This document shows, piece after piece, positions 12,686 through 64,000 of a stretch of 64,000 nt of DNA. The notes under the pieces are model-generated. The model saw only the letters and a program-made list of their open reading frames with translations, was not told the origin of the DNA and ran no database searches. Each line of letters starts with the position of its first letter. The stretch's first letter is position 1. The DNA lies in contig NZ_CP139301.1 in NCBI RefSeq assembly GCF_034092395.1, positions 1,798,001 through 1,862,000 of the forward strand. The letters run 5' to 3'. Source of the DNA: Prochlorococcus sp. MIT 1307. GTDB taxonomy: Bacteria; Cyanobacteriota; Cyanobacteriia; PCC-6307; Cyanobiaceae. The translations under genes were made by a program, and so were the position numbers.

Positions 12686-12750
12686 ATTTGAATCCTTTCC
12701 CAAAATCACAGTTTTTTTTACAATCAATTTACTTCACCTGATTTTTTTAG

Positions 12751-40418: not shown

Positions 40419-40482
40419 ATATTAATTTTGGGTTCTCTTTAAACTTAAGAGCTCACTTTAGTGTTAAAATATAAAGAATAGC

Positions 40483-41274
40483 ATGTTAATAGCCCCTATA
40501 ATGAAAGGTAAAATAGACAAAGCGAAGCTTGATAGATTTTCCCAGTCTTCTGTTCTTTACATCCCCTCTTTGTTCCCTAAAGATCTTTGTAACGAGACTT
40601 GTGCGTTTTTCTTGAAAAATGAGAGAAGCATTATCGATAGATTTAGAGAGGATAAAAAGGGGCTAACTCTTGATGCCTTAAATAGTGAAGAATACATTAA
40701 ATATTTTGAATATCCAATTGCTCTAAATGCAGAGCTGTTTGGTAGGTATGTCAATTCAGATGTTTTTGAATTGTCTGAGCAGTTGCTTTCTGAAAAGGTC
40801 TACATAAAGAGTCTAGAGATTCATTCAAGATGTGCAAAAGGAACTCCGATTCCACCACATCAGGATAATGCTTACTATGGATTAGAAAGAGCAAAAGGAA
40901 TCACATTTTATATTCCAATTAATAACCAGAAACCAACTTCAGGCGGTTTGCAATACTATAAAGTTAGAAATGACATTTCGCTATCACATATACCTTCAGA
41001 TGAGAGTGGATTCTCTTTGACAATCCAAGATACTTCTGCTTTAGAGAATACAGAGATACTGGCATATAATTACCAGCCTGGTGATTGCACAATTCATCAC
41101 TCAAATAGTGTGCATTTTGCTGAAATGGTTCCAGATAATACCCAGCGCGGATTGGTTGTACGACTTTCTTTATTTTCTATTGATGATCAGAAAAAATCTG
41201 GCCATAGTGAATGGTATCAATCTATGATCAGAAGGAATAGAGATCGAAATAATCATGTTTTTTCAAGTTTGTAA
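40483..41274 (+). CDS. Phytanoyl-CoA dioxygenase (PhyH)-like Fe(II)/2-oxoglutarate oxygenase
   Basis: 263 residues, soluble. The facial triad is visible: His and Asp in PPHQDNAYYGL (about 126-136) and the distal His in the segment IHHSNSVHFAEMVP (about 205-220), followed by RGLVVRLSL with the Arg that would bind 2-oxoglutarate. GITFYIPINNQKPTSGGLQY is the typical core strand pair. A hydroxylase between a guanylyltransferase and an aminotransferase in a nonulosonic-acid operon suggests hydroxylation of the sugar or a precursor, which I infer from context only. Confidence 0.72.
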   Translation: MLIAPIMKGKIDKAKLDRFSQSSVLYIPSLFPKDLCNETCAFFLKNERSIIDRFREDKKGLTLDALNSEEYIKYFEYPIALNAELFGRYVNSDVFELSEQLLSEKVYIKSLEIHSRCAKGTPIPPHQDNAYYGLERAKGITFYIPINNQKPTSGGLQYYKVRNDISLSHIPSDESGFSLTIQDTSALENTEILAYNYQPGDCTIHHSNSVHFAEMVPDNTQRGLVVRLSLFSIDDQKKSGHSEWYQSMIRRNRDRNNHVFSSL

Positions 41275-41282
41275 TTTTTCCT

Positions 41283-42416
41283 ATGCCTGGCTTTGAGGTT
41301 ATTGATAATGCAGAGGCTCAGGCCGCTTCTGCGGTGTTTGAAGAGGGTGGTGTCTTGTTTGCGCATGGATTTGATAAGTTGCGTAAAAGATTTCATGTGC
41401 GGGAATTTGAAAATGATGTTTCCGAATATTTTTCCTCTGAATACTGTCAAGCAGTGTCTTCAGGCACCTCCGGAATTAAATGTGCACTAAAGGCTCTTGG
41501 TGTTGGATATAAAGATGAGGTGATTACACAGGCTTTCAATTTTATAGCAACAGTAGAGTCAATTATTGACTGTGGTGCCACTCCTATAATATGTAATGTA
41601 GATGAAAACTTACATCTTGATATTGAAGATTGCCTATCTAGAGTAACACCTAAAACCAAAGCAATATTAATAGTTCATATGTTAGGTATGGCTGGCCCTA
41701 TAGGAGAGCTTAAACAATTAGCGAAGAAACTATCTATCCCAATTATAGAAGATACCTGTGAAGCTATTGGAGCAAGGCAAGGATCATCATTCCTTGGAAC
41801 AATTGCAGATGTAGGAGTCTTCAGCTTTGACCATGGAAAAAATATAACTTGCGGAGAGGGAGGCATGATTTTAACTAATCAAAAGGATATTAGTCGCTAT
41901 GTAAAGTCATACACTGACCATGGGCACGCTTTTGAGCCGAACAAGTCTCGAGGAGAAGATAATGCCTTAATGCCTGGTTTTAATTATCGAATGACTGAGT
42001 TACAAGGAGCAATTGGAAAGGCACAATTGAAGAAGTTAGACCATATTTTAGAAAAAAACATAGAAAGATATAGTGCATTGTATGAACAAATATCTTCTTG
42101 CTGCAAAGTTAGAGAAAGCCTCCAAGACAGCAAAGGATCTTATGATGCTTTGATCATTCGCTCTTTAGATGAAGCAACTAAGAGTAAAATTATCTCAATT
42201 CTTAAATCTCAGGAAATCGGGACTAAGAATATTCCTGATGCAATGAATTGGCATTGTAGCTATTACTGGAAACATGCTTTATCTGATCATGAAGTGAATC
42301 ACTCCAAGCTAACTTACGAGCTGTTAAATAATTCTGTTGCAATTCCAATATGGCTTTCTAGATCCATTGATGAATATACTAAGCTAGGGCATACTATCAA
42401 GAGCCTCTTTAATTAG
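41283..42416 (+). CDS. DegT/DnrJ/EryC1/StrS family PLP aminotransferase
   Basis: 377 residues. Sugar aminotransferase fold with SSGTSGIKCALKALGVG (about 60-76), IIEDTCEAIGARQ (PLP-contacting Asp, about 156-168), and the PLP Lys in FDHGKNITCGEGG (about 186). NYRMTELQGAIG (about 238) is the usual substrate-site helix. 8 bases after the dioxygenase gene. LegC is a separate gene downstream, so this one probably makes a different amine, perhaps the precursor amino sugar; substrate unknown. Confidence 0.85.
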   Translation: MPGFEVIDNAEAQAASAVFEEGGVLFAHGFDKLRKRFHVREFENDVSEYFSSEYCQAVSSGTSGIKCALKALGVGYKDEVITQAFNFIATVESIIDCGATPIICNVDENLHLDIEDCLSRVTPKTKAILIVHMLGMAGPIGELKQLAKKLSIPIIEDTCEAIGARQGSSFLGTIADVGVFSFDHGKNITCGEGGMILTNQKDISRYVKSYTDHGHAFEPNKSRGEDNALMPGFNYRMTELQGAIGKAQLKKLDHILEKNIERYSALYEQISSCCKVRESLQDSKGSYDALIIRSLDEATKSKIISILKSQEIGTKNIPDAMNWHCSYYWKHALSDHEVNHSKLTYELLNNSVAIPIWLSRSIDEYTKLGHTIKSLFN

Positions 42417-42458
42417 ATTGATCATCTTGACTATGTATCATTGTATTTTTAATTGCTG

Positions 42459-43199
42459 ATGTTACTAACTGATAGAAAATCTGATAAGTTAAATATATTA
42501 GCCGTTGTTCCAGCACGAGGCGGGTCAAAGGGTATTCCTGGTAAAAACTTAAGAAAAATAGGTGGCCTTCCGCTAGTTGACCATACGATTAAATTTGCGA
42601 AACAATTGTCTAATGTAGATGGAGTGATTTTAACTAGTGACTCCAGCTCTATATTGCAAAGAGGAGAGAAATATAATATTTTTACTGTTAATAGGCCTAA
42701 AGAGTTAGCTTCAGATGAATCTTTAGTGATAGAATCAATAAAGCATGCTGTTGCAATTTATGATCAAAGAAATCAAGTAACAACCGATTCTGTAATTCTC
42801 TTGCAACCTACTTATCCCTTTAGGTTAAGAGATGATGTTGAAAAGGCTATTAGTAAACATGTAGAAGGTGATTCTATTCCAGTAATTTCAATTAAGCCCA
42901 TGAAAGAGAATCCATGTGAATGCATTGTACTTGACACAAAAGATAATTGGTCTTACCTCGTCAGCCCACCCCAAAATGCAAATAGACAGAATTATCCATC
43001 ATGTTATTATTTTATAACAGGTAACTTTTATATTTCATCAATGCAAAGTTTGAACTCATATAATTCATTCATGACGCCAAATTCATCGTTTTTCAGAACT
43101 AAAGAACGCATTGCTATTGATATAGATTTGCCTGAAGACTTTATTCTTGCTGAAAATATTTTCTCATTAACCTCATCGTTAGGAGAACCTTCTCTATGA
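42459..43199 (+). CDS. CMP-nonulosonate (legionaminate/sialate-type) cytidylyltransferase
   Basis: Activates a nonulosonic acid with CTP. 246 residues from ATG 42459, with ILAVVPARGGSKGIPGKNLR (about 13-32), the CMP-sugar synthetase signature, and LLQPTYPFRLRDDVEKAI (about 113-130), plus IDIDLPEDFILAE near the end. NeuA/LegF family. A TTG two codons upstream (42453) is also in frame. The specific acid is inferred from its operon partners. Confidence 0.88.
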   Translation: MLLTDRKSDKLNILAVVPARGGSKGIPGKNLRKIGGLPLVDHTIKFAKQLSNVDGVILTSDSSSILQRGEKYNIFTVNRPKELASDESLVIESIKHAVAIYDQRNQVTTDSVILLQPTYPFRLRDDVEKAISKHVEGDSIPVISIKPMKENPCECIVLDTKDNWSYLVSPPQNANRQNYPSCYYFITGNFYISSMQSLNSYNSFMTPNSSFFRTKERIAIDIDLPEDFILAENIFSLTSSLGEPSL

Positions 43200-43243
43200 A
43201 ATATATCTACCATTCTATTGGCTTAACTCTTTAGCTGTCGATT

Positions 43244-44251
43244 ATGCTCACCAATAAGAAAGTTCTTGTTACTGGTGCTGATGGATTTATCGGCTCTCAT
43301 TTAGTAGAGAAACTTCTATCTCATGGCTATGATGTACGTGCTTTCTGTCTTTATAATTCGAATGGTAGTTGGGGATGGCTAGATACAATACCATCTTCTA
43401 TTACAGATAGCATTGAAATCATACTTGGAGATATTAGAGACTATGCATCTATAAAAAATGCCATGATTAATTGTGAACACGTATACCATCTTGCATCTCT
43501 AATAGCTATCCCATATAGCTATATTGCCCCATCCAGTTATATTGATACTAATATAACTGGAACCTTGAATGTTCTTCAGGCTGCAAGGGAACTTTCTACA
43601 GCTCGAGTTATACATACCTCAACTTCTGAGACTTATGGTACGGCTAAATTTGTTCCCATAACAGAAGATCATCCGCTTTCTGCACAATCACCTTATGCTG
43701 CGAGTAAGATAGGTGCTGATCAATTAGCAATTAGCTATTGGAAAAGCTTTGAAACTCCTGTATCAATTTTAAGGCCTTTTAATACTTATGGCCCTAGGCA
43801 AAGTTCCAGGGCTGTCATTCCGACCATTATTACTCAAATAGCTTCTGGGCAAAATAAGGTCAAGCTAGGTGCTCTTTCCCCTACAAGAGACTTTAACTAT
43901 GTGACAGATACTTGTGCAGCATTTATGGCAGTCGCTAATAGTGAGAATACACTTGGACAAGTTATCAATTCAGCTAGTAGCTTTGAAATATCTATAGGCG
44001 AGACTGCTTCATTAATTTCTAAATGTATGGATAAAGATATAGAAATAATCTCAGACGAGGAAAGGATGCGGCCTATAGATTCAGAAGTTAATAGACTTTA
44101 TGGAGACAATAGCCTTCTTAAGAGATTGACAAGCTGGGAGCCTGAATATGGAGGAATAGAAGGTTTTACAAGAGGTATTAATTCCACAATTGAATGGTTC
44201 TCAAAACCTTCTAATCTCAGTAAATATCGTGTTGGCAGTTATATGATATGA
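43244..44251 (+). CDS. LegB-like NAD-dependent sugar 4,6-dehydratase
   Basis: 335 residues, extended SDR family. Rossmann motif GADGFIGSH (about 11-19), TSTSETYGT (about 125) with catalytic YAASK (about 152-156), and RPFNTYGPRQ (about 178). This is the LegB group, which dehydrates GDP- or UDP-GlcNAc in the legionaminic pathway; the co-located PtmE-like enzyme favours a GDP sugar. Its stop overlaps the next start (ATGA). Confidence 0.86.
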   Translation: MLTNKKVLVTGADGFIGSHLVEKLLSHGYDVRAFCLYNSNGSWGWLDTIPSSITDSIEIILGDIRDYASIKNAMINCEHVYHLASLIAIPYSYIAPSSYIDTNITGTLNVLQAARELSTARVIHTSTSETYGTAKFVPITEDHPLSAQSPYAASKIGADQLAISYWKSFETPVSILRPFNTYGPRQSSRAVIPTIITQIASGQNKVKLGALSPTRDFNYVTDTCAAFMAVANSENTLGQVINSASSFEISIGETASLISKCMDKDIEIISDEERMRPIDSEVNRLYGDNSLLKRLTSWEPEYGGIEGFTRGINSTIEWFSKPSNLSKYRVGSYMI

Positions 44252-45453
44252 GTAGATCATCTTCTACTAAAGAGATTCTAGATGCTATCCAGAAAGTAGT
44301 TGGACCTGCAAAGGTAGATAACCCAATTTTTTTACACGAACCTGAATTTAAAGATACAGCTGCTTGGGAATATGTAAAAGAATGCATTGACTCTGGTTGG
44401 GTCAGTACAGCGGGAAAATATGTAAATCAATTTGAGGAGGAACTTTGTAAATATACAGGAGCAGATTATGCAATAGCGGTTACAAATGGAACTGTTGCTT
44501 TAAGATTAGCACTTAGCATAATTAATGTTAAACCAGATGAAGAAGTTATTATCCCACCTTTAACATTTGTAGCCACAGCAAATGCTGTTTGTCACCTTAA
44601 TGCAATTCCTCACTTTGTAGATATTGAAAGTAACACATTTGGTCTTTGTCCGGAAGCACTTCAGGGCAGACTAGAAAAATTAGCATATAAAGAAAATGGA
44701 CAGGTTTTTAATAGGGATACGGGCAGAAGAATTGCTGCAATTCTCCCAGTGCATCTGTTTGGTAATCCATCAAAGATTATTGAACTAAAAAGAATTGCAT
44801 TTGAATGGGAGCTGCCTCTTGTCGAAGATGCCGCTGAGGCTCTTGGAAGTTGGAGCAAAGAATCAAATAAATATATACATTGTGGCCTATTTGGTGCAGT
44901 TGGAATTCTGAGTTTCAATGGTAATAAAATTATCACGACTGGAGGTGGAGGAGCTTTAATAACTAATGACAAAAACCTTGCTTTAAAAGCACGACATATT
45001 TCTACTACTGCAAAGATACCTCACCCCTGGATGTATCAACATGATCAGATTGGTTGGAATGACAGAATGCCAAATATAAATGCTGCTTTAGGTGTATCAC
45101 AAATGCAAGACTTTGCTAGACGTTTAGAACGTAAGAACCATTTAGCGGATTCTTATTACAATCAATTTAGTATTTTAAAAGGAATCGAACTATTGCGAGC
45201 TAGAGATGATTGCATTTCAAACAAATGGTTAATGACTGCTCGTTTTACTGCTAATAATCAGGATCATGCAAAATCTCAATGTTTAGACCTTGTTCAAGAA
45301 TCAAATGCAATAGGCATAAGATTAAGGCCTGCATGGAAACTTTTAACTAAACTTCCTATGTTCTTAGATAACCCTAAAGGACCATTGCCAAATGCAGAGT
45401 CAGAGTTTTCTCGTCTTGTGAATTTACCAAGCAGTCCGCAAATATGCAAATGA
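44248..45453 (+). CDS. LegC-like aminotransferase
   Basis: 401 residues, DegT family. TNGTVALRLALSI (about 81-93), VEDAAEALGSWS (about 192-203), PLP Lys in FNGNKIITTGGGGA (about 229), and WNDRMPNINAALG (about 269). Order and overlap with the LegB-like gene make it the aminotransferase that puts the amino group at C4 of the 4-keto-6-deoxy sugar. The 3' end overlaps the LegG-like gene by 10 bases. Confidence 0.86.
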   Translation: MSRSSSTKEILDAIQKVVGPAKVDNPIFLHEPEFKDTAAWEYVKECIDSGWVSTAGKYVNQFEEELCKYTGADYAIAVTNGTVALRLALSIINVKPDEEVIIPPLTFVATANAVCHLNAIPHFVDIESNTFGLCPEALQGRLEKLAYKENGQVFNRDTGRRIAAILPVHLFGNPSKIIELKRIAFEWELPLVEDAAEALGSWSKESNKYIHCGLFGAVGILSFNGNKIITTGGGGALITNDKNLALKARHISTTAKIPHPWMYQHDQIGWNDRMPNINAALGVSQMQDFARRLERKNHLADSYYNQFSILKGIELLRARDDCISNKWLMTARFTANNQDHAKSQCLDLVQESNAIGIRLRPAWKLLTKLPMFLDNPKGPLPNAESEFSRLVNLPSSPQICK

Positions 45454-46637
45454 GCGATGATTCAATAGTAAAGAAAAATGCATCAAGACTTTCTGTTTGC
45501 GTCGTTACTGGAACACGGGCGGAATATAGCTTATTAAGGAATCTCATCCATAAACTTAATGAAGATTCATTCTTTGAGCTCTATTTACTGGTGACTGGTA
45601 CACACTTAGTAAAAAGATTTGGTTATACGATCAACGAAATAATTTCAGATGGTATTCCAATTGCAAAGCAAATTGATATTGACTTGAACTCTGATAGACC
45701 CACTGACATCTCTAACTCAACTGCTAAGGGGCTTCAAGAGTTTGCTAAGGCATACGATGAAATCCATCCAGATTTGATTCTGTTATTAGGAGATAGGTAT
45801 GAACTCATGTCATCAGTTCTACCTGCTTGTTTCGCAAGAATTCCGATTGCCCATATACATGGCGGTGAATTGACCGAAGGATTAATCGATGAGGCGATAA
45901 GACACTCAATCACAAAATTCTCTCACCTGCACTTTGTAGCAGCTGAGGAGTATCGTAGAAGAGTTATACAATTAGGTGAGGACCCTTCAAGAGTTTTCAA
46001 TGTTGGTGGAATGGGCATAGATTCAATAAATTCAATTGATCTACTTTCAAAATCAGAAGTTGAGATGTCTTTAGGTTTAAAACTGCTTAGTAAATCTTTA
46101 TTAATTACTTATCACCCTGTTACTCTTGATGATGAAGATTCGCTTCGCCCGATGAATGAGATGCTCGAAGCACTGAAAAGAGTTCAAGATACAACTTTGA
46201 TATTTACAATGCCTAATGCAGACCCAGGCAATAATGTGATTTTTAAATTAATTACTAACTTTGTTCGTGAGAAACCAAATTCCTATGCCTTTACATCTCT
46301 TGGACAGAAAAGATACCTGAGTCTTTTGCAATATATTGATGGCGTTGTTGGCAACTCATCAAGTGGTCTTTTGGAAGTGCCTTTTTTTAAGAAAGCTACT
46401 ATAAATATAGGAGACAGACAAAAAGGAAGGTTGCAGGCCCATAGCGTAATTAATTGCAAGCCTGACTTTGATTCAATCGCACAAGCCTTAAATAAAATTT
46501 ACTCTCCCACTTTCTGTATGAGACTATCAGAAGTCGAGAGCCCTTATGGCGATCAAGGAGCATCTTCAAAAATAATAAGGATCTTAAAAAGTATAAATTT
46601 TAGGAGCCTTATTAAGAAATCCTTTTTTGACATGTAG
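45444..46637 (+). CDS. LegG/NeuC-like NDP-sugar hydrolyzing 2-epimerase
   Basis: 397 residues. GT-B-fold UDP-GlcNAc 2-epimerase family with VVTGTRAEYSLLRNLI (about 19-34), LLGDRYELM (about 113), HIHGGELTEGLIDEAIRHS (about 136-154) and GNSSSGLLE (about 304). In the legionaminic pathway it releases the 2,4-diacetamido-2,4,6-trideoxymannose that the synthase uses. Start ATG 45444 overlaps legC; ATG 45450 is equally possible. Confidence 0.88.
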   Translation: MQMSDDSIVKKNASRLSVCVVTGTRAEYSLLRNLIHKLNEDSFFELYLLVTGTHLVKRFGYTINEIISDGIPIAKQIDIDLNSDRPTDISNSTAKGLQEFAKAYDEIHPDLILLLGDRYELMSSVLPACFARIPIAHIHGGELTEGLIDEAIRHSITKFSHLHFVAAEEYRRRVIQLGEDPSRVFNVGGMGIDSINSIDLLSKSEVEMSLGLKLLSKSLLITYHPVTLDDEDSLRPMNEMLEALKRVQDTTLIFTMPNADPGNNVIFKLITNFVREKPNSYAFTSLGQKRYLSLLQYIDGVVGNSSSGLLEVPFFKKATINIGDRQKGRLQAHSVINCKPDFDSIAQALNKIYSPTFCMRLSEVESPYGDQGASSKIIRILKSINFRSLIKKSFFDM

Positions 46638-46641
46638 ATTG

Positions 46642-47526
46642 ATGAGAATATTATTTTTTGGTTCAGTTGAATTCTCTAAACATGCGCTATCGCTATTGAT
46701 TTCTGAAGGGCATGAAATTATTGGTGTTTGTACATTAGAAAGTTCAGAATTTAATTCTGATTTTTATGACTTGAGTATAATCTCAAAGAAGAATAATATT
46801 CCATTTTTATATGTTAACCATAATAATGAACAGAAAACAATTTTATGGATACATTCTTTGAAACCAGATGTTATATATTGTTTTGGTTGGTCTAGACTTT
46901 TGTCTGATAAGATCCTTAAAATTGCTCCATTAGGTGTAGTTGGCTATCACCCTGCTTATCTACCTAAAAATAGAGGAAGGCACCCTATAATTTGGGCATT
47001 ATCTTTAGGTTTAGAGATAACCGCATCAACATTTTTCATTATGGAAAGTAAGGCTGATAGTGGCGATATCATTTCTCAAGTTGAGGTTCCAATAACTCAT
47101 GAAGATGACGCTAATTCACTATATAATAAATTGATTGTGATTGCTTTAGATCAAATAAGATCTTTCACTCCACTCCTAGCATCTAATAAGATTTTTGCTA
47201 AGAAACAAAATCACAAACTTGCAAATATATGGAGAAAAAGGACGCCTAAGGATGGAATAATTGATTGGAGAATGAGCTCTAAAAATATTCGTAATTTAAT
47301 CAGAGCATTGACTAAACCCTATTGTGGAGCTTCATTTATTTACAAGTGTAAGGAATACAAGGTGTGGGAGTCAGAATTAACTAGCTGTGACCAAGATAAT
47401 ATCGAGCCTGGGAAAATTTTAAGAATCTATGAAAATAATACCTTAATTGTTAAGTGTGGGGAGGGGGCAATCAAACTTACAAAAATGGATGCATTCAACC
47501 GCTTAGAAATAGGAGAATACTTATGA
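46642..47526 (+). CDS. Sugar N-formyltransferase (methionyl-tRNA formyltransferase-like)
   Basis: 294 residues, beginning MRILFFGSVEFSKHAL. N10-formyltetrahydrofolate-dependent formyltransferase core with YHPAYLPKNRGRHPIIWAL (about 108-126) and the catalytic Asp in ESKADSGDI (about 140-148), then a C-terminal accessory domain (about 200-294). Sugar N-formyltransferases of this kind modify amino sugars of surface glycans. 4 bases after the LegG-like gene; its end overlaps the deacetylase start (ATGA). It probably formylates an amine freed by that deacetylase. Confidence 0.85.
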   Translation: MRILFFGSVEFSKHALSLLISEGHEIIGVCTLESSEFNSDFYDLSIISKKNNIPFLYVNHNNEQKTILWIHSLKPDVIYCFGWSRLLSDKILKIAPLGVVGYHPAYLPKNRGRHPIIWALSLGLEITASTFFIMESKADSGDIISQVEVPITHEDDANSLYNKLIVIALDQIRSFTPLLASNKIFAKKQNHKLANIWRKRTPKDGIIDWRMSSKNIRNLIRALTKPYCGASFIYKCKEYKVWESELTSCDQDNIEPGKILRIYENNTLIVKCGEGAIKLTKMDAFNRLEIGEYL

Positions 47527-48185
47527 GGACTTTAGTTGTTTCTCCACATCCAGATGATGAGGTCTTAGGAGTAGGTGGAACATTATTAAAACGAAAGTCT
47601 CAAGATCAAACTTTAGCCTGGTTAATATTTACTAAGCCAAGTCCAGTTGTTCAGTGGTCTGAATCTCAAGTAAAGAAACGAGAAGAAGAATTACTCTTGC
47701 TAGAAGAATTTATAGGGTTTGATCAAACATTTAAGTTGAACTATTTAGCAGGCTTGTTAGAAGAAGTAACTTTCGGGAAATTGGTTAAGTCAGCTTCAGA
47801 AGTTCTTTCCACATTTAAACCTGATGAGGTATTTATTCCACACTTAGGAGATGTACATTCTGATCATGATATTGTTCATAGATGCTTAGTAAGTGCTACA
47901 AAATCTTTTAGGCAGCCCAATATTAAGAGAATAATTGCTTATGAAACTCTCTCTGAAACTGAGTACGGATTAGATAGATCAAGAACCTTTTCTCCAAACT
48001 TGTACATTGATATAAGCAATTTCATAGATCAAAAAGTAGAAGCAATGCAGATTTATCAATCTGAGTTAGGAGAATTTCCTTTTCCAAGAAGTAGTCAAGC
48101 TATTTATGCCCTGGCTTCTTATAGAGGAGCAAGTTCAGGGTTTAAGGCTGCCGAAGCATTTGAGATATTAAGATTTAGGGAATAG
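47523..48185 (+). CDS. PIG-L/LmbE family N-deacetylase
   Basis: 220 residues, zinc-dependent. SPHPDDEVLGVGGTLLKR (about 7-24) gives the His-Asp-Asp zinc and base ligands, and HLGDVHSDHDIVH (about 105-117) the second His group; SELGEFPFPRSSQAIYALAS is the family tail. Starts at an ATGA overlap with the formyltransferase, so the two are coupled. Expected to remove an N-acetyl group so that the formyltransferase can act. A second copy of the same pair is at the right edge of the window. Confidence 0.86.
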   Translation: MRTLVVSPHPDDEVLGVGGTLLKRKSQDQTLAWLIFTKPSPVVQWSESQVKKREEELLLLEEFIGFDQTFKLNYLAGLLEEVTFGKLVKSASEVLSTFKPDEVFIPHLGDVHSDHDIVHRCLVSATKSFRQPNIKRIIAYETLSETEYGLDRSRTFSPNLYIDISNFIDQKVEAMQIYQSELGEFPFPRSSQAIYALASYRGASSGFKAAEAFEILRFRE

Positions 48186-48286
48186 TAAAAGATAGTCAGT
48201 AACCAAAAAAAAGAAATTAAATTGACACATTAAGATCTTTATAGGATAATGAAAATATCAAGATAAACCGAAGGAAGATAGAAGTT

Positions 48287-49294
48287 ATGGTACCAAGGAC
48301 CATCATAATTGCAGAGGCTGGTGTTAATCATAATGGAAGTTTAGACCTTGCAAAGAAGCTTGCAGAAGTAGCTAAAGAATCTGGTGCAGATTATATAAAG
48401 TTTCAAACTTTTAAAGCTGAGATGCTTTCTTCAATAAAAGCACCTCAGGCTGAGTATCAAATGAAGAATACTAACTCTAAGGAAAGTCAAGTTAAAATGT
48501 TGAAGAGATTAGAAATGAATAATCAATTTCATAATCAAATTTATGAATTTTGCAAGCGAATTGATATTGGCTTCTTATCAAGTGCTTTCCATCAAAATGA
48601 TTTAGATTTTCTTCGGAAGTTTAATATGGATTACATTAAGATACCATCAGGAGAAATTACTAATCATAGATACTTGAAATTCGCATGTGCTTGCAATAAA
48701 AAGATCATATTGTCAACTGGGATGTCTTATCTTTCGGAAGTTGAATCAGCTCTTAACCTTTTAATCGGAGAGGGGATTTATCGAAGCAATATTTGGTTGC
48801 TTCAATGTACCACTGAATATCCAGCCCCTTATGACTCAGTAAACTTAAATGTTATGAATACATATAAAAATAAATTCAATGTAAATGTTGGCTATTCAGA
48901 CCATACTTTGGGTATTGAGGTGGCTATTGCTGCAGTTAGTCTTGGCTGCCAAATGCTAGAAAAACATATAACTTTGGATAAAAATATGGAAGGACCCGAT
49001 CATATTGCAAGCTTGGAACCTAGTGAGCTTAGTTCAATGATATCTGCAATAAGAAATGTCGAACAAGCTCTAGGCTCAGGAGTGAAGTCTCCGTCTAAGG
49101 TAGAAAAAGAAAACATTAAGGTTGTTAGGAAATCAATTGTTGCTATCGCACCTATTCCTCAAGGTACGCTATTTACAACGGAAAATATAGGCTGTAAAAG
49201 ACCAGGGACTGGAATTAGCCCTATTAATTATGAAGATTACCTAGGCCGTAAGTCCTTGAGAGAATATGATGTAGATGAATTAATAGATCAATGA
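48287..49294 (+). CDS. NeuB/LegI-like nonulosonic acid synthase
   Basis: 335 residues. Condenses a 6-carbon amino sugar with phosphoenolpyruvate. AEAGVNHNGSLDLAKKL (about 8-24), YIKFQTFKAEM (about 36-46), IIVLSTGMSYLSEVESA-type strand near 145, and a C-terminal SAF (antifreeze-like) domain with AIAPIPQGTLFT (about 285-296) and KRPGTGISP. This is the enzyme that defines a nonulosonic acid pathway. 101 bases after the deacetylase gene, with a possible separate promoter. Confidence 0.9.
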   Translation: MVPRTIIIAEAGVNHNGSLDLAKKLAEVAKESGADYIKFQTFKAEMLSSIKAPQAEYQMKNTNSKESQVKMLKRLEMNNQFHNQIYEFCKRIDIGFLSSAFHQNDLDFLRKFNMDYIKIPSGEITNHRYLKFACACNKKIILSTGMSYLSEVESALNLLIGEGIYRSNIWLLQCTTEYPAPYDSVNLNVMNTYKNKFNVNVGYSDHTLGIEVAIAAVSLGCQMLEKHITLDKNMEGPDHIASLEPSELSSMISAIRNVEQALGSGVKSPSKVEKENIKVVRKSIVAIAPIPQGTLFTTENIGCKRPGTGISPINYEDYLGRKSLREYDVDELIDQ

Positions 49295-49320
49295 TAATTT
49301 TACTAGAAAGCTTTAACTAG

Positions 49321-49974
49321 ATGGATAAATATATATTTTCAGAACGACTGATTATTATTGGTGCAGGGGGGCATAGTAAAGTAGTTAATGATATTGCGGC
49401 GCTTATTGGTTTTGAAGATATAGCTTATCTAGACAATAAATCTATTAATACTGCCTTAGATAAAAATGTCTATAGCCATTTAAAAGAAAATTTTAGTCAA
49501 TATTTTTTCGTTGCCATTGGAGACAATTATATTAGAGAAAAAGTATTTAATGAATTTTTGAGCGATAACCCAAATGCCACTCCAATATCGCTATTGCATC
49601 CAAGTGCTGTTATTTCAGAAACAGTTAGCGTAGGGAAAGGTAGTCTTATAATGCCTTTGTGTGTTGTTAATAGTCAATCCGTTATAGGAAATGGTGTGAT
49701 TGTTAATACTTCTAGCAGTATCGATCATGAATCAACCATCATGAACTTTTCGTCTTTGGCTCCTGGTGTAAATATGGGAGGCAATGTATCTATTGGCTCA
49801 AGAACAGCATTATGTATTGGATGTACAGTTTCTCATGGAATTAGTATAGGCAATGATGTTGTGATTGGTGCATCGTCTTTAGTTTTAAATGATATTAGAG
49901 ATAATACCTTGGCATATGGTATACCAGCAAAAATAATTAAAACTAGATTTTCAGGTGAAAAATATTTTAATTGA
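49321..49974 (+). CDS. NeuD/PglD/LegH-like acyltransferase
   Basis: 217 residues: an N-terminal Rossmann-like part (LIIIGAGGHSKVVNDIAA, about 10-27) and a left-handed beta-helix of hexapeptide repeats (about 100-205), the layout of PglD and NeuD. In the legionaminic pathway LegH acylates the C4 amine; NeuD O-acetylates sialic acid. With LegB and LegC present, the LegH role is the simpler reading. Last gene of the plus-strand operon; it converges on the WecA-like gene. Confidence 0.82.
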   Translation: MDKYIFSERLIIIGAGGHSKVVNDIAALIGFEDIAYLDNKSINTALDKNVYSHLKENFSQYFFVAIGDNYIREKVFNEFLSDNPNATPISLLHPSAVISETVSVGKGSLIMPLCVVNSQSVIGNGVIVNTSSSIDHESTIMNFSSLAPGVNMGGNVSIGSRTALCIGCTVSHGISIGNDVVIGASSLVLNDIRDNTLAYGIPAKIIKTRFSGEKYFN

Positions 49975-56091: not shown

Positions 56092-57387
56092 TTATAAATT
56101 TTCCCTTGAGATTAATTCTCCAATTGAATCCCATACTTTATGGAAGACACTAATTATCATTTCAACATCTTTATCATCCAACTGATGAAGACACATTTCA
56201 TAACCTAAGAAGGTTTTATCGTGCAACTCCTCTGCATTCGGGCAAATACCCTTCTGATAATTAACTTCCCGTTTACAAATGTCTGAACTCCATGGAAAAC
56301 CCTTCTTTCCATAGGCAGTCTTTTCTTGGAATATTGGCAGCATGTGTATATTGGCGTAGCCTTCTATCAGCCCCTTTAGACCTTCAGCTTCTAAGGCTGC
56401 TTTGATTGTTTTTCTTGGCAACCCAAGTAGATCAACATCCAATATCATAGGGTATATATAAAATGAATGTGTATTACCTTTTTCAATATAAGGAGTTATA
56501 AGGCCTTTCAGTCCCTTCAATCCCTCTGTCAAGCGAAAACCTATTTGTCTTCTTCGTTCAAGAATTCCATCAAGTTTTTTTAGTTGCTCACACCCAATTG
56601 CTGACTCTATTTCACCTAGTCTAAAATTATGGCCAATCATATTAGATAGATCCTGCACTTTCATTCCTTGAACTGCAGCTTCGGCATGATTGCGGATCAG
56701 AGCTAATCTTTGATAGTAGTTTTCAGAATTTGTAACTATAATCCCGCCTTCACCGGTATGAATGTGTTTGTGATAATTAAGACTAAAACCTCCAATATCT
56801 GCCAGTGTACCTGTTAAACCGCTAGATGTAATACTTCCTGGTGATTGCGCACTATCAGTAATTAATTTAATATTATTCTCCAAGGCGATCTCATTCAAGC
56901 CTACTACATCACATGATTGTCCAAATATATCAGCAGCCATTATAACTTTTGTGTTTTCAGTGATATTATTCTTGACTGATTGGATATCAAGATTGAACGT
57001 TCTTTTATCTATATCTGCAAAAACAGGAATTGCATTCCAATGAAGAATAGATGTTGCTGTAGCACACATAGTCCATGGAGTTACTATTACTTCATCACCA
57101 GGCTCTACGCCAATAGCACCTAAAGCGCATATTAGTCCAGAAGTCCACGAATTGACGGTTACTGCGTATTGGACTTTGAAATAACTTTTACATGCCCTCT
57201 CAAATCTTTTAACCTCTGGACCTCCATAAAAGTCTTCGTCCCAGCAACCTAAAAACTTAGACAAGCAGCCAGAATCCATTACATTTGAAACTGCAACTTT
57301 TTCTTCCTTGCCTATAGAATTATACTTAGCAAAAGTATAATCAATAAGTTTGCTTCCTCCTAATAAGGCTAATCTATTTTTATTCAT
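56092..57387 (-). CDS. DegT/DnrJ/EryC1/StrS family PLP aminotransferase
   Basis: 431 residues, longer than usual. SWTSGLICALGAIGVEPGDE (about 79-98), TDSAQSPGS (about 178-186), PLP Lys in NYHKHIHTGEGG (about 207), and IGHNFRLGEIESAIG (about 245-259). Long C-terminal region with two Cys-containing loops. Third DegT-family enzyme in the island and the last gene of the second sugar operon; its start overlaps the oxidoreductase end by 8 bases, suggesting the pair oxidises then aminates a sugar carbon. Substrate unknown. Confidence 0.84.
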   Translation of the reverse strand: MNKNRLALLGGSKLIDYTFAKYNSIGKEEKVAVSNVMDSGCLSKFLGCWDEDFYGGPEVKRFERACKSYFKVQYAVTVNSWTSGLICALGAIGVEPGDEVIVTPWTMCATATSILHWNAIPVFADIDKRTFNLDIQSVKNNITENTKVIMAADIFGQSCDVVGLNEIALENNIKLITDSAQSPGSITSSGLTGTLADIGGFSLNYHKHIHTGEGGIIVTNSENYYQRLALIRNHAEAAVQGMKVQDLSNMIGHNFRLGEIESAIGCEQLKKLDGILERRRQIGFRLTEGLKGLKGLITPYIEKGNTHSFYIYPMILDVDLLGLPRKTIKAALEAEGLKGLIEGYANIHMLPIFQEKTAYGKKGFPWSSDICKREVNYQKGICPNAEELHDKTFLGYEMCLHQLDDKDVEMIISVFHKVWDSIGELISRENL

Positions 57388-58363
57388 CTTTTGACACTTT
57401 TAAAAGCTTATTAATTAATTCTAGTGTATGAATAGCTTCAATCCCTGTACAAAGATGGTTCTCTTTAAATTGTAATGCTCTAAATAGTTGATTGACCACA
57501 TTAAGTTGTGATATATTCATTTTATTATCAATAGTTTCCCCGTCAGGTTCAATTATGCTATAGCCATTAAAGTTAGGACAAGGGATCTTACCCTGAAAGG
57601 TTATCTGTCGGCCTTCATTTTGATAAAATATCCTTCCAGACGGACTATAAATTTCGGCTGTTAGAACTGAATATTTTAAAGATTTTAAACTTAAAAATAT
57701 TAACGACCCTTTTTTAAACTCTATATGAAAATCAGGCTCTGGATCAGTTGCTCTATGATTAAAATTCTGATTTATAATAAATGCCTTTTTCTCCTCTCCT
57801 AGCCAGTAAGTAAGCATATCAATGAAGTGGGAAGCATTGTTATATATACCGTTTGTGTAATAACAAACTCCTTTTATAGGAGTCTTTATTTTCCCTGTTT
57901 CAAGCCTTTCTTTGATTTCTAAAACTCCAGGATCAGCTCTTCTCATATAATTTACATAAAGTCTATTATTTAAAGACGCTAAATCCTTTAATATATGTAA
58001 AGTTTCATAAGCATTATTTGAAATAGGTTTTTCACATAAGATGGTCTTATTATTTAGACTTAGCTCTATTATTTTTCGCAAAATAGAATTATGACTATCT
58101 GTATTTGTTGAAATTACAAGTACATCTGGGTCACTAACTTGTATAGCATCTTCAATTTTGTTAAATGTTTTTACCTTGTATTTATTTTTAAATAGTAAGC
58201 AATTTTCATGACTCAAATCGACTCCTCCTATTAATTTAAAGTTACTATGAAGATCAAAGGCCTTTGCGTGTGTGACTATAAAATTATCATCTGAACTATT
58301 GATATCATATAGACAGCCTATTTTTCCTAGCCCAATTATGAGCACATTATATTGCTTTTTCAT
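57380..58363 (-). CDS. Gfo/Idh/MocA family sugar oxidoreductase
   Basis: 327 residues. Rossmann motif IIGLGKIGCLYD (about 9-20), VISTNTDSHNSILRK (about 83-97) and the family CEKPISNN (about 113-120), then an alpha/beta domain (about 128-300). These enzymes oxidise or reduce a hydroxyl or keto group on a sugar nucleotide. Its start overlaps the upstream stop (ATGA). Together with the downstream aminotransferase it could install an amino group. Confidence 0.85.
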   Translation of the reverse strand: MKKQYNVLIIGLGKIGCLYDINSSDDNFIVTHAKAFDLHSNFKLIGGVDLSHENCLLFKNKYKVKTFNKIEDAIQVSDPDVLVISTNTDSHNSILRKIIELSLNNKTILCEKPISNNAYETLHILKDLASLNNRLYVNYMRRADPGVLEIKERLETGKIKTPIKGVCYYTNGIYNNASHFIDMLTYWLGEEKKAFIINQNFNHRATDPEPDFHIEFKKGSLIFLSLKSLKYSVLTAEIYSPSGRIFYQNEGRQITFQGKIPCPNFNGYSIIEPDGETIDNKMNISQLNVVNQLFRALQFKENHLCTGIEAIHTLELINKLLKVSKDE

Positions 58364-59253
58364 GATCTTTGAATAATATCTAATATATTCTCTATCTGCT
58401 TATATGGTAATGATATTTCTTTGCAATTCTCGGGAATTGAAGATATAACTCTTCTGCCAGCATGCAATGCGACGACTAATGCCATAGATTCAGCCCCAAC
58501 GACAATGCTGGATTTACTGATATCATTATAAAGATTCTTTTCGATGGATATTTTAATATTTAAATCATTAAATTTATCGATAGTAGGTAGATATTTATAA
58601 TGTTTTTCTGATGGATGTGGTCGAATTATTATATTAGGAGAAGTTAAACATAAACTATCAATATTTTCCAATAGTAATTCAAGACTTGTCAGCTCATTAT
58701 ATCTCCAAAGGCTTTCATCACTATATGTCTCCTTTAGAAACTCACTTGTATTTTCACCAATAAATAATATCGTATTCTTAACATCTGATTCATAGTCAAT
58801 TGCACTTACCTTGTCAACCATAGATTGAATATAGTAATTTTGTTTCAATTTTATTGTTTTAAAATTAAAAACTAAACTGGCTAGTTCTTTGGCATGATTA
58901 TCAGTTACCCAAATCTCATCTGGCTTTAGTAGAGAGCCTTTATAAATTAGCCTTGATTTGTAATCTATCCAATGATCTAACATTACAATTGTCTTGATAT
59001 TCTGTACTTTAGCTTGCACGATAGCTTCTTTCTCTAAAGAACTTTGCCAACTGGTTCCGACAATTAATGTTTTACATTTTTTGAATAAATCATTCAAACT
59101 AGCCTCACTTTTTTGACCCAGAACTCTTTTGAAGATTTCTATTGCAGGTCCTTTCAAAAAACAAGAAACTTTTAGCTCCTCGTGTTTTATCCAGTGGCTT
59201 AATAATTCCGAACCTCCAGCATCATGGCATACAACACCAATATCATTTATCAT
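58360..59253 (-). CDS. Predicted GT-B / NDP-sugar protein of unknown function
   Basis: 297 residues, no membrane helices. Starts DIGVVCHDAGGSELLSHW, has VMLDHWIDYKSR near 92-103, and a C-terminal half with IRPHPSEKHYKYLP (about 208-221) and VVGAESMALVVALHAGRRV (about 250-268), the layout of capsule-type GT-B transferases or 2-epimerases. A 1-base overlap (TAATG) couples it to the SpsF gene. Exact role unknown. Confidence 0.5.
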   Translation of the reverse strand: MINDIGVVCHDAGGSELLSHWIKHEELKVSCFLKGPAIEIFKRVLGQKSEASLNDLFKKCKTLIVGTSWQSSLEKEAIVQAKVQNIKTIVMLDHWIDYKSRLIYKGSLLKPDEIWVTDNHAKELASLVFNFKTIKLKQNYYIQSMVDKVSAIDYESDVKNTILFIGENTSEFLKETYSDESLWRYNELTSLELLLENIDSLCLTSPNIIIRPHPSEKHYKYLPTIDKFNDLNIKISIEKNLYNDISKSSIVVGAESMALVVALHAGRRVISSIPENCKEISLPYKQIENILDIIQRS

Positions 59254-59987
59254 TAAGTATCTCCTTTCCTCAATACATCTTTATTGATTAATACTAGCCC
59301 TAAATTCTTTCTTAAATAATTTAGTATGTCTATACATTTAAAGAAAGGGTCTTTATCATATAAAGACTCTATAACTTTATTAATCAATTTGTAGTCATCA
59401 TACTCATCCAAGGTCAACCCTAACTCTGGCCAATGCAAATCTGGCGGAGCCACAAGATTAATAATTTTAAATAGGTCAGGATTATTTTTGATGTGTAAAG
59501 TGACATGCTCCTTGTCCAGAACGTTGTCTGTAAGTAGATATGATTTTTTTAAAGCAGCTAGCGTAATGACTCTGGTATCCATCCCATCTGGATAACTTTG
59601 TAGAGTATTATTATTTACGAAATCACATTTATTTGCTTTAAATGTTCTTATTACTTGTTCAATAATGCCAGGGTCAATCAAAGGGCAGTCTCCCGTTATC
59701 TCAACTATCACATCTGCTTTATATTCTTCTCCAGCATTTATAACCCTTTTCATTACATCATCTTCTTCGCCTCTAAAACATCCGATTTCATATTCATTAG
59801 CGAAAGACTCTAATACATTATCAGTCTTTTTTGTTGTAGTTGCTAAAACTATCTCATCTATTGATTCGACTTTCTTTAATCTATTTACTAGGTGACCCAG
59901 AAGTGGAATTCCTTTTGATCTCAATAATACTTTTCCAGGCAATCTAGAAGATGTCATTCTAGCTTCTATTGTAGAAACGATTTTCAT
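59253..59987 (-). CDS. SpsF-type cytidylyltransferase family protein
   Basis: 244 residues. IVSTIEARMTSSRLPGKVLL (about 3-22), the COG1861/SpsF signature, EIVLATTTKKTDN (about 44-56) and EITGDCPLIDPGIIEQVI (about 96-113). Family members transfer CMP to acidic or unusual sugars, as in spore-coat and nonulosonic clusters. The preceding gene encodes the same domain fused to an aminotransferase, 2 bases away, so the operon has two of these. Confidence 0.82.
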   Translation of the reverse strand: MKIVSTIEARMTSSRLPGKVLLRSKGIPLLGHLVNRLKKVESIDEIVLATTTKKTDNVLESFANEYEIGCFRGEEDDVMKRVINAGEEYKADVIVEITGDCPLIDPGIIEQVIRTFKANKCDFVNNNTLQSYPDGMDTRVITLAALKKSYLLTDNVLDKEHVTLHIKNNPDLFKIINLVAPPDLHWPELGLTLDEYDDYKLINKVIESLYDKDPFFKCIDILNYLRKNLGLVLINKDVLRKGDT

Positions 59988-59989
59988 AG

Positions 59990-62038
59990 TTAATTCAACC
60001 TTTTAAAGCTAGAATGACAACATTCATATGTTAATAATTCATCAATATCTTCTCTACCAGTTTCACATTCTTTTATCAACTTGAAAATCTTCTCCAGATG
60101 TACCATATAATCATTAATAATCTCTATGCTATGTGCAGTGCTCATGTAGCATGTATTTGAAGCAAGGTAGCCTTTCCTCAGCATTTGTTGTGTGATTAAT
60201 GTTTTATACTTAAGTGAGTCAGTACCTGAAAATGTAAATGTACTAAGAGAGGCTAGGCCTTTTAGTGAAATTTCTAACTCATATTTGTTGGCCATTTTAT
60301 TTATTTTATTCCTAAAATAATTTCCTTTGCTTGTGATCTCTTCCCAGCTTTTATTTCTTTCCATGACTTCCAAAGTCTTTAATGCTGCTGTTGGTCCTAT
60401 GCGCTCTGTCCAAAATGTACTGCTCATAAATGTACTTTGAGCTGACTGCATTATTTCTTTTCTACCTAAAACGCAAGTTATTGAATATCCATTGCCAAGT
60501 GCTTTGCCGAATATTGCTATATCTGGATCTACACCATACTTTAAATGTAGACCTCCAAATGTTTCTCGGAAACCAGATGTACATTCATCAAATATAAGAA
60601 TTATCCCTTTTGAATCACATAATTTCCTTATACCTTCTAAATAACCCTTTTTTGGTATTGATGATCTTTCTACTTCCATTTTTATTGCTGCTAGATTATA
60701 TTTATTAGCAATCTTTTCGATTTCCTCCAGATCATTGTAGGTAAATGGTATCACAGTATCTTCCAATGATTTTGGAACACCATTTGCTTCTAGTCCTGGA
60801 AGTAAATGATCCTTTAACTCTAAATTTCCTTTTAGATTAGTAGCTAAATACCAATCATGCCATCCATGATATCCACATATAGCTATTTTATCTTTGCCTT
60901 TACTTGCTCTGGCTATTCTTACAGCAATTGCATTAGCCTCCCCTCCTGTCCTTGCAAAACGAACCATATCTGACCATGGATGCATGCTGACTAACTTTTC
61001 AGCGAGTTCTACTTCCTCTGGACAATTAAATGTGCTCATATTTCCTCTTTCGATTGTTAACTTAACCGCCTCATCAACTTCCAAGCAGCCATATCCTAAA
61101 ATATTTGTGCCAATACCCATAATACTCATATCTGTATATTCACTCCCATCTAAATCCCACACTTTGCAACCCCTAGCTTTTGAGAAATATGAGGGCCAAC
61201 CTTCAGGAAGAAACATTTCTGGCCTTTTTGATAACAGCATATTTCCTCCTGGGATCAATTTCTTTGCACGTTTATATAGCTTTTGACCTGTCCCTATATT
61301 GAAGCCTTCATTTCTTTTGATTTTGCTATTTATTTCAAAAATAGAGGGCTTTAATTTTTCCAATTCAATTACATCCTCCCATGAAAAATCAGATCTTCCT
61401 TCAAAGTGTTCTACAATCATTCTTACAACTTCTAGATCTTCTGCCTCATCAACGGTCCATCTCATATTCGAGTAATTTTTTCTCGATTTATAAGTATTAA
61501 CCATATAATTATTACTTTCTCTTATCCATACAGTTACATGCTCTCTATTCAAAGGCTCATTACATTTCAAATAAGAAGCTAGTAAACATTTTTTCCTAAA
61601 GACTTCTACATCTAGGCCGTCAGGAAATGTTGGTGGATAAGAATTACTTAAATAGTCAACTCCGCTATTAATATATTCGACTATTGTCCTATCAATTAAG
61701 TTAGGGTCTAATAGAGGACAATCAGCTGTTAGCCTAACTAGGTTCTCTGAATGTGTAGTTAATGCTGCTTTATGATAACGTGATAAAACATCCTTTGTAC
61801 TTCCTCTCACTATTGTTATATTTAATTTTTGCCCCAACAATTCAATTGCATTATCCTCATCTAGTTCTGTAGTGGCAATAATTATGTGATCAAGCAATTC
61901 GCATCTTTTTACCCTTTCAATCATAAATTCGAGCATAGGCCTACCAGATATATCAGCGAGAACTTTCCCTGGAAGCCTAGTTGAGCCCATTCTTGCTTGT
62001 ATTATCGCAGTAAATTGTTGTTTCTTCATTTTGTTCAT
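59990..62038 (-). CDS. Fusion of SpsF-type cytidylyltransferase and class III aminotransferase (GSAM-like)
   Basis: 682 residues. Residues about 7-245 form an SpsF-type nucleotidyltransferase (AIIQARMGSTRLPGKVLADI; RLTADCPLLDPNLIDRTI). Residues about 255-660 form a class III PLP enzyme like glutamate-1-semialdehyde aminomutase: PGGNMLLSKRPEMF, RFARTGGEANAIAVR, ILIFDECTSGFRE (about 482-494) and the PLP Lys in AIFGKALGNGYS (about 511). One protein thus carries sugar-acid activation and amino transfer or migration. Start overlaps nothing; 18 bases after the aldo/keto reductase gene. Confidence 0.86.
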   Translation of the reverse strand: MNKMKKQQFTAIIQARMGSTRLPGKVLADISGRPMLEFMIERVKRCELLDHIIIATTELDEDNAIELLGQKLNITIVRGSTKDVLSRYHKAALTTHSENLVRLTADCPLLDPNLIDRTIVEYINSGVDYLSNSYPPTFPDGLDVEVFRKKCLLASYLKCNEPLNREHVTVWIRESNNYMVNTYKSRKNYSNMRWTVDEAEDLEVVRMIVEHFEGRSDFSWEDVIELEKLKPSIFEINSKIKRNEGFNIGTGQKLYKRAKKLIPGGNMLLSKRPEMFLPEGWPSYFSKARGCKVWDLDGSEYTDMSIMGIGTNILGYGCLEVDEAVKLTIERGNMSTFNCPEEVELAEKLVSMHPWSDMVRFARTGGEANAIAVRIARASKGKDKIAICGYHGWHDWYLATNLKGNLELKDHLLPGLEANGVPKSLEDTVIPFTYNDLEEIEKIANKYNLAAIKMEVERSSIPKKGYLEGIRKLCDSKGIILIFDECTSGFRETFGGLHLKYGVDPDIAIFGKALGNGYSITCVLGRKEIMQSAQSTFMSSTFWTERIGPTAALKTLEVMERNKSWEEITSKGNYFRNKINKMANKYELEISLKGLASLSTFTFSGTDSLKYKTLITQQMLRKGYLASNTCYMSTAHSIEIINDYMVHLEKIFKLIKECETGREDIDELLTYECCHSSFKRLN

Positions 62039-62056
62039 TAGTTTAGTTTACTATGA

Positions 62057-62977
62057 TTAACTTCTCTTCGGCCATGCTCTGGGATCTAAAAATGTCGAAT
62101 CCTCCCATGACCATTGAGAGTAACTCATAGTATTATCCAGTTTGCTTTGAACTTTTTTCCATATTAATAAAATATTTTCAAAATCTTCTTTACTTGAGAT
62201 CCCCACAAGAATTGTCTTAATATGCTTTATTGATTTCACAAAATCTAGTGAAGCCTCTAGTAATGAAATATTCTTTCCTTTTAGATAATTAGCAAATCTT
62301 CCGTGATGATCTCTAAAATCATTAGAGATAAATGAAGGCCAATCACTCATTGCTTGTAATAATAAACCTTGAAGAAAAATACTTCTTGCTTGAATTTCAA
62401 TACCTTTTTTCTTCATTTTTGAGATAGTTCCATTCTTCAACAATCTTTGATCATATATTGAAATCGGTAATTGAACTATGTCGATATGACTAAGAGGTAC
62501 AGATTCTAAATCTTTTTCACTATAAATTGAAACCCCTATTTTTTTCACTAAACCTTTTCTTTTAATACTCAATAGCCAATTAATTAAATCTTTACAACCT
62601 GATTTTTTAAAAATTGAACAATCATGTATTAATAATCCTTCTATATTATCTCTTTTTAAATCTAACAAACTTTTTTTTAAGCTACTGTCCAACTCTAGAG
62701 TGAAATTATTATTTTTAATGTTAAACCCATCAGTATTTATTTTTGTAATGATCTTTATTGGACTGCATTTAGGTACTAGCTCTCCTATGATTCCCTCAGC
62801 TGATCCATATGATTGAGCAGTATCTATGTACTTTATATCGTTTTTAATAATTAATTGAACTATCTCAATTATTTCCTTTCTTCTGATAATTCCTTTTTTA
62901 TTTGAAATCCCATAATTCATGCCAAACTGAGCTGTTCCTAAACATAAATTCGTAGAAGGTTCTTTTTCTTTTATCAT
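62057..62977 (-). CDS. Aldo/keto reductase
   Basis: 306 residues, NADPH-dependent TIM barrel. LCLGTAQFGMNYGISNKKG (about 11-29), KYIDTAQSYGSAEGIIGEL (about 49-67) with the catalytic Asp-Tyr pair, and LLIHDCSIF (about 115) for the catalytic His. Several reported nonulosonic and rare-sugar clusters carry such a reductase. 2 bases after the formyltransferase stop. Substrate unknown. Confidence 0.82.
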   Translation of the reverse strand: MIKEKEPSTNLCLGTAQFGMNYGISNKKGIIRRKEIIEIVQLIIKNDIKYIDTAQSYGSAEGIIGELVPKCSPIKIITKINTDGFNIKNNNFTLELDSSLKKSLLDLKRDNIEGLLIHDCSIFKKSGCKDLINWLLSIKRKGLVKKIGVSIYSEKDLESVPLSHIDIVQLPISIYDQRLLKNGTISKMKKKGIEIQARSIFLQGLLLQAMSDWPSFISNDFRDHHGRFANYLKGKNISLLEASLDFVKSIKHIKTILVGISSKEDFENILLIWKKVQSKLDNTMSYSQWSWEDSTFLDPRAWPKRS

Positions 62978-62979
62978 GT

Positions 62980-63651
62980 TTATGAGTTATTCTTTTGCAA
63001 GTCATTAACTAACTCAACATCCTTAATAAGGAGGAACTTATTATCAATAGTTCTTATGTAAGCATTTGGATATGGATAGGTTAACATCCTTATTTTATTA
63101 TATAAGTATTTAGAGTCTTTTTTCTCTAATTCTTCAATAGTTAGCTCACCTTGTTCTATGGTTCTTCTTGTATAGTGAGTCGCATCACTATCTCTTTGCT
63201 TTCTTGGCTCTGGAAAGCTTTTTAGAATATTTAATGTCATTAATAGTCCTATCTTTTCCATCCTTAAAAATATATCTTGGATATTACCTTCAAGAGAAAG
63301 ATATTTCTGATCAACAATATCACCTGAATCTAATTTTTTATTCATTAAAAATATTGTAACCATGCTATGTTGCTCACCATTTATGATTTGGTTTTGTATT
63401 GGAGTTCCTCCACGGTACTTTGGCAGTGGAGATGGATGAAGCATTAAGCACTTATACTTCTCGATTATTTTTTCTGAAACTATCCAACTCCATCCATAGA
63501 ATAGAATTATGTCAGGGTCAAAATTGAGAATTGCTTCTTCTGAATATTGTGATTTAGAACGTATAATTAAAAAAGTATGATCTAAACTACCTGCTAACGC
63601 GTCATAAATATTTAAAGACCATTTACGATAACCTATGCATGCAATTCTCAA
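62980..63651 (-). CDS. Sugar N-formyltransferase (short form)
   Basis: 223 residues, formyltransferase core without the longer C-terminal domain of the plus-strand copy. LMLHPSPLPKYRGGTPIQNQ (about 70-89) and KKLDSGDIVDQ (about 105-115) carry the active-site His and Asp. Starts in an ATGA overlap with the deacetylase gene, exactly as in the other operon but in reversed gene order. Likely formylates an amine exposed by that deacetylase. Confidence 0.82.
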   Translation of the reverse strand: MRIACIGYRKWSLNIYDALAGSLDHTFLIIRSKSQYSEEAILNFDPDIILFYGWSWIVSEKIIEKYKCLMLHPSPLPKYRGGTPIQNQIINGEQHSMVTIFLMNKKLDSGDIVDQKYLSLEGNIQDIFLRMEKIGLLMTLNILKSFPEPRKQRDSDATHYTRRTIEQGELTIEELEKKDSKYLYNKIRMLTYPYPNAYIRTIDNKFLLIKDVELVNDLQKNNS

Positions 63652-64000
63652 AATGAGATCTCCCTGATAAGTCTAAAAGCCTCTGCATACTCTACACCTA
63701 CTTGCATGCCTCTGATCATGGCATTAGCTTTAATACCTTCTCTTGACCTTGGGAATGGATAATCCTTTACTTCAGTATTATATATATTTAGGCTGTTGAA
63801 TTTATTTTCAACATCTGTTTCATTTAATTGGATAAAATAATTTGGCTTGAAGCACTTTTCGAACCCCCATTCACTAGATGATAGGACTTCAAAGGTATAT
63901 AAACGTAATACTTTACAGCTTGGAGTTGGCCTTGTTGCCATTATCACTGATGAATAAATGATCTTATGATCATTATTAGAGTCAGTTGATGAGTGAGTAA
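63648..64000 (-). CDS. PIG-L/LmbE family N-deacetylase, C-terminal part (truncated by window edge)
   Basis: The frame stays open to the last base, so the gene continues outside. The visible 116 codons read DHKIIYSSVIMATRP (second His of the zinc site), LYTFEVLSSSEWG and EVKDYPFPRSREGIKANAM, a typical PIG-L C-terminal half; the N-terminal HPDDE motif is missing only because of the edge. First visible gene of the second sugar operon. Confidence 0.85.
   Translation of the reverse strand, partial: THSSTDSNNDHKIIYSSVIMATRPTPSCKVLRLYTFEVLSSSEWGFEKCFKPNYFIQLNETDVENKFNSLNIYNTEVKDYPFPRSREGIKANAMIRGMQVGVEYAEAFRLIREISF

Follow-up and report, generated by a model that had tools for sequence, protein, structure and literature searches.

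What sugar is made by the genes that run inward from the right edge of this stretch of the Prochlorococcus sp. MIT 1307 genome? Within the 64,000 nucleotides analysed here (the window), an earlier note had read eight minus-strand open reading frames as a deacetylase-formyltransferase operon with an unusual sugar chemistry, and had suggested that they may make a new amino-sugar acid and that a NeuB-type synthase might lie past the right edge. The order and spacing of the eight frames are as claimed, their domains are borne out by Pfam and NCBIfam, and a NeuB-type synthase with a SAF domain was indeed found beyond the edge. The host genome is complete (2.03 Mb), and in it the operon comprises 12 co-directional genes with intergenic gaps of -8 to +42 bp (Table 1). 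These very probably make a sialic-acid-like surface sugar.

Table 1. Genes of the operon, from the first to the last. Window position = L002 position + 54000. Domains were assigned with Pfam/NCBIfam; the GT2 frame lay outside that scan.
Gene product	Window position	L002 position	Direction	Evidence
PseB (first gene of operon)	beyond window edge	13059-14069	same as operon	
RmlD-like SDR	beyond window edge	12150-13016	same as operon	
NeuB+SAF	beyond window edge	11064-12122	same as operon	
GT2	beyond window edge	10342-11067	same as operon	
PIG-L/LmbE deacetylase	63648-64000, runs past window edge	9648-10331 (full gene)	minus	PF02585, 87 bits; HPDDE motif
Formyltransferase-like protein (FMT)	62980-63651		minus	PF00551; HPSPLPKYRGG motif
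Aldo/keto reductase (AKR)	62057-62977		minus	PF00248, 87 bits; matches to AKR tetrad motifs
SpsF-like cytidylyltransferase fused to class III (GSAT-like) aminotransferase (SpsF-GSAT)	59990-62038		minus	PF02348 + PF00202; PLP lysine motif FGKALGNG at 510
SpsF2, second cytidylyltransferase	59253-59987		minus	PF02348, 103 bits
GT-B fold protein (GTBl)	58360-59253		minus	predicted structure; invariant R211, H213, P214 (RxHP)
Gfo/Idh/MocA oxidoreductase	57380-58363		minus	PF01408, 48 bits
DegT/StrS aminotransferase	56092-57387		minus	PF01041, 265 bits; HKHIHTGEGG motif

The operon is of a pseudaminic-derived (Pse-derived) nonulosonic acid (NulO) type, not of the legionaminic (Leg) type. Its first gene product scores 469 bits with the PseB model TIGR03589, above the curated cut-off of 408, and the Leg-type reading was rejected on this ground; the retaining dehydratase LegB is not found in the operon (TIGR04180, 71 bits versus a cut-off of 475). 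The earlier view that Leg-type steps had been swapped for other enzymes needs correction, since with PseB at the head of the operon this is not a simple Leg replacement. PseB, a NeuB-family synthase and a cytidylyltransferase are held in common with the CMP-pseudaminic acid pathway of Helicobacter and Campylobacter (PseB, C, H, G, I and F). The operon differs from that pathway in having no PseC, PseG or PseI above cut-off, in using SpsF instead of PseF, and in adding an RmlD-like reductase, an AKR and a class III aminotransferase. The best PseC match in the complete genome is the DegT protein of the window (TIGR03588, 214 bits versus a cut-off of 424), the HMM of the UDP-sugar hydrolase PseG matched nothing in the whole genome at E 0.01, and the operon NeuB, at 250 bits versus a PseI cut-off of 340, falls in a separate clade. 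The GSAT domain of the fusion is not a HemL equivalog (TIGR00713, 206 bits versus a cut-off of 527), and the host genome has a further GSAT-family gene at another site.

The window contains two NulO operons within one stretch, the other (39363-49974) being, from its translations, a Leg-type operon that encodes an FMT and a PIG-L of its own as well as a PhyH-like protein and NeuD. The deacetylase/formyltransferase module had been described as a repeat of the one in that operon, and a homologous pair does lie at 46627-48185, at about 30% identity. Both FMTs of the window (62980-63651 and 46627-47526) keep the HP and RG motifs, and in both the Asn of the usual N-x-H motif is replaced, by Met in the first and by Gly in the second.

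To place the unusual genes in a wider context, relatives of the GSAT domain were collected by alignment scan. At least 582 were found, of which 80 were taken as loci, 46 of these with flanks of more than 6 kb. Among the 46, an AKR is present in 38, NeuB in 36 and PseB in 33, and the window operon likewise combines its AKR and class III aminotransferase with PseB and NeuB. In 50 of the 80 loci SpsF and GSAT form one fused protein, an AKR lies directly upstream in 40, and in two loci (L060 and L073) the AKR is the fusion partner of SpsF; these fusions tie both enzymes to the CMP-activation stage. A search for the same gene order in other genomes had been proposed, and AKR and SpsF-GSAT do occur together across many phyla, a co-occurrence that is not due to chance.

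Several members of this collection depart from the common arrangement. On a plasmid of Halorussus aquaticus, a haloarchaeal SpsF + GSAT pair has a Gfo/Idh oxidoreductase as its neighbour in place of the AKR. Seven alphaproteobacterial loci (L084, L096, L098, L099, L101, L102 and L104) carry a stand-alone GSAT of 433-439 aa, and no NulO synthesis genes were matched there. One of them (L084:3493-15401) encodes, by Pfam, a family-5 solute-binding protein, two DHDPS-family frames, an M81/MlrC protein, a class IV aminotransferase and PhyH, and looks catabolic; in the others GSAT and PhyH were the only matches.

Judged by gene content, the NulO loci fall into two variants, of which variant A keeps PseC, PseG and PseI, and variant B, to which the window belongs, is without PseC and PseG and has an RmlD-like reductase. 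The NeuB proteins of variant B form a distinct clade (support 100/100) of ten loci including the window, and in these ten PseC and PseG are never found and RmlD is found nine times. The corresponding counts among the PseI-type rows are 34/51 for PseC, 33/51 for PseG and 9/51 for RmlD (Fisher p 9e-5, 1e-4 and 2e-5, respectively, values that are descriptive because the loci are related). One PGAP-annotated locus reads pseB, pseC, AKR, GNAT, hypothetical protein, class III aminotransferase (the SpsF-GSAT fusion), pseG, pseI, and the variant A locus of Marinobacter persicus has PseC, PseG and PseI above cut-off. The AKRs of the two variants are intermixed in their tree, whereas NeuB splits cleanly, as would be expected if the AKR acts on a part of the sugar common to both. 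Furthermore, the NeuB of a plain Pse cluster that lacks both AKR and GSAT belongs to the variant A clade, which is expected if AKR and GSAT act after NeuB.

No UDP-hydrolase was recognised in variant B. GTBl was tried as PseG, which is among its Foldseek matches, but was rejected on the empty genome-wide PseG search. The GT2 that follows NeuB was also considered as the missing hydrolase; the window GT2 matches that of variant B weakly. The locus of Bacteroides stercorirosoris has a NeuB of the variant B clade with PseB, SpsF and GSAT, and no RmlD or AKR was matched in the stretch examined. Flagellin-like N-termini lie within about 10 kb of the variant B locus of Neptuniibacter caesariensis and of the M. 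persicus locus.

A precedent for the chemistry of the AKR comes from EpaA, a fusion of SpsF to an AKR, which acts jointly with the SDR EpaB to convert Pse to 8-epi-Pse, as seen by NMR of the capsule (PMC12053666). A fusion of SpsF and AKR also accompanies a dehydrogenase in a Vibrio Pse cluster (PMC7371886), and plasmids of Marinovum and Maritalea encode SpsF-AKR proteins beside an SDR. These two plasmid proteins served as stand-ins for EpaA in the AKR tree, where they share a clade with the window AKR, apart from three other AKRs. Neither phages nor viral contigs yielded a full-length match to fused SpsF-AKR queries. The operon and the EpaA/EpaB system, likened through these stand-ins, would have in common CTP_transf_3 and Aldo_ket_red chemistry at C8 of a NulO; they differ in the fusion partner, and in that the partner of the operon AKR is an aminotransferase, not an SDR. 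Among the scanned operon proteins (the GT2 frame being outside the scan) there is no adh_short SDR of the EpaB type, the SDRs being PseB and the RmlD-like protein. An aminotransferase in the place of an EpaB-like reductase suggests that an 8-keto group is turned into an 8-amino group.

By this analogy, the AKR and SpsF-GSAT most likely introduce a further amine on the side chain of the sugar. Nothing direct on biosynthesis genes for 8-amino NulOs was found in the literature searched. An eight-carbon parallel is the Kdo8N pathway of Shewanella, in which a dehydrogenase (KdnB), an aminotransferase (KdnA) and a cytidylyltransferase (KdsB) lead to an 8-amino ulosonic acid; KdnA is of the DegT type, whereas the operon aminotransferase is class III. 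The window DegT scores 113 bits against KdnA (5k8b), with another protein as best match. An 8-amino sugar of the Pse-like (manno) series is known from the O-antigen of Tenacibaculum (Flexibacter) maritimum (PMC3210612), a 5,7,8-triamino NulO of the kind expected for variant A, unlike the 5,8-diamino product proposed below for variant B.

The genes of variant A also have a published counterpart. In group I of the polar flagellin glycosylation islands of Aeromonas, the pse genes are interspersed with those for a keto reductase and a class III aminotransferase, in variant A order and with function unassigned (PMC7874193). That island keeps pseC, pseG and pseI and a separate pseF, whereas the window has the fused SpsF-GSAT and RmlD. 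The claim that no described pathway has the full set of genes thus stands to the extent that the literature searched holds no enzymatically described pathway with it. The set is less singular than had been supposed, in that its AKR/class III aminotransferase pair is widespread and was already on record in Aeromonas. The flagellin of A. hydrophila AH-1 carries a 403 Da glycan, some fragments of which differ by one unit from those of a Pse derivative; the authors of that study propose another formula. By the nitrogen rule, so odd a mass is consistent with an odd nitrogen count, and it is possible to formulate triamino NulO residues with a nominal mass of 403.

The best way to join these elements is a route from PseB through AKR and GSAT to CMP activation, by which the operon would make a CMP-activated, pseudaminic-derived NulO for a surface glycan; we regard this proposal as about evenly poised between right and wrong. 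PseB, by its family assignment, would convert UDP-GlcNAc to the 4-keto-6-deoxy-L sugar, and the RmlD-like enzyme would reduce C4, where Pse organisms use PseC. Removal of UDP would then precede the NeuB step, in which the variant B enzyme, a synthase by family, would add PEP to the presumed substrate. The AKR would oxidise the 8-OH of the side chain, and the resulting ketone would be transaminated by the GSAT domain, steps modelled on EpaA/EpaB and on the fusions, after which the fused SpsF domain would add CMP. The product would be a 5,8-diamino-3,5,8,9-tetradeoxy-nonulosonic acid with O at C7, on which PIG-L and FMT may exchange N-acetyl for N-formyl. We infer both the order of the steps and the carbon that is aminated.

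The remaining four genes of the operon (56092-59987) form, on their distribution among genomes, a separable second module, so that the eight genes do not have to belong to a single pathway, as the earlier note had it. SpsF2, Gfo, DegT and GTBl occur all four in L068 and L078, SpsF2, Gfo and DegT in L038, and Gfo, DegT and GTBl beside Pse genes in L197 and L198. In another cyanobacterium (L196) the four are found alone with a GNAT-like frame, no PseB or NeuB being matched in 20 kb. The two SpsF copies of the operon are 31% identical. GTBl has no Pfam match; its predicted structure (pLDDT 81) matches GT-B proteins with Z 12-14, including NeuC, LpxB and a CMP-sugar polysialyltransferase at Z 13-14, and it is a candidate CMP-sugar glycosyltransferase. 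The module may supply a second sugar or its transfer.

Other readings of the AKR and GSAT must be weighed against amination at C8. The two enzymes might act on another carbon (C4, or C7 in variant B) and give a different amino-NulO, since variant B is without PseC and GSAT could be its sole installer of an amine, and aminoglycoside class III aminotransferases, with C-6' enzymes among the PDB matches, do act on sugar carbons. We consider this unlikely, because variant A has PseC besides AKR and GSAT, so that C7 is already aminated there, and because both the EpaA precedent and the natural triamino NulO in the literature point to C8. It is also improbable that the pair builds or modifies an N-acyl substituent, for example an amino acid or a hydroxybutyryl group. 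Unusual acyl groups are frequent on NulOs and the 403 Da of AH-1 could stem from a nitrogen-containing acyl, but the fusions join a cytidylyltransferase to these enzymes and none of the 12 genes of the operon was recognised as acyl-activating.

Quite unlikely, too, is an epimerisation of C8 by the AKR and the RmlD-like SDR in the manner of EpaA/EpaB, with an unrelated role for GSAT. EpaA and the plasmid proteins do pair an SpsF-AKR with an SDR; against this, RmlD tracks the NeuB clade and the absence of PseC, as a 4-keto reductase would, and most variant A loci have AKR and GSAT without RmlD. Finally, an ordinary O-antigen operon for two or more known sugars, its unusual set a matter of mere adjacency, would suit the ordinary polysaccharide genes in the flanks, the separable second module and the GC content (0.326 in the operon part inside the window versus 0.427 in window 1-38000), but is very doubtful given that the core of PseB, AKR, SpsF-GSAT and NeuB is kept as a unit across many phyla.

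Amination at C8 leads to a more tentative proposal, possible though rather less than probable, that variant B is a route in several phyla to 5,8-diamino-3,5,8,9-tetradeoxy-7-hydroxy NulOs, a class of which no description was found in the literature searched. A distinct amino-sugar acid, as first suggested, remains the best reading of the operon, on a base chemistry that is Pse-derived. If the proposal is true, the variant B sugar would be isobaric with di-N-acetyl pseudaminic and legionaminic acids and easily missed by mass spectrometry, and surveys based on mass only could have mislabelled such sugars as common NulOs. Should amination at C8 be right, the two NulO variants could be told apart by synthase clade, and an O-antigen sugar known from its structure would become traceable in genomes. 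There would also be a gene-to-chemistry rule for 8-amino NulOs, by which many bacteria, marine plankton among them, would be predicted to carry the modification.
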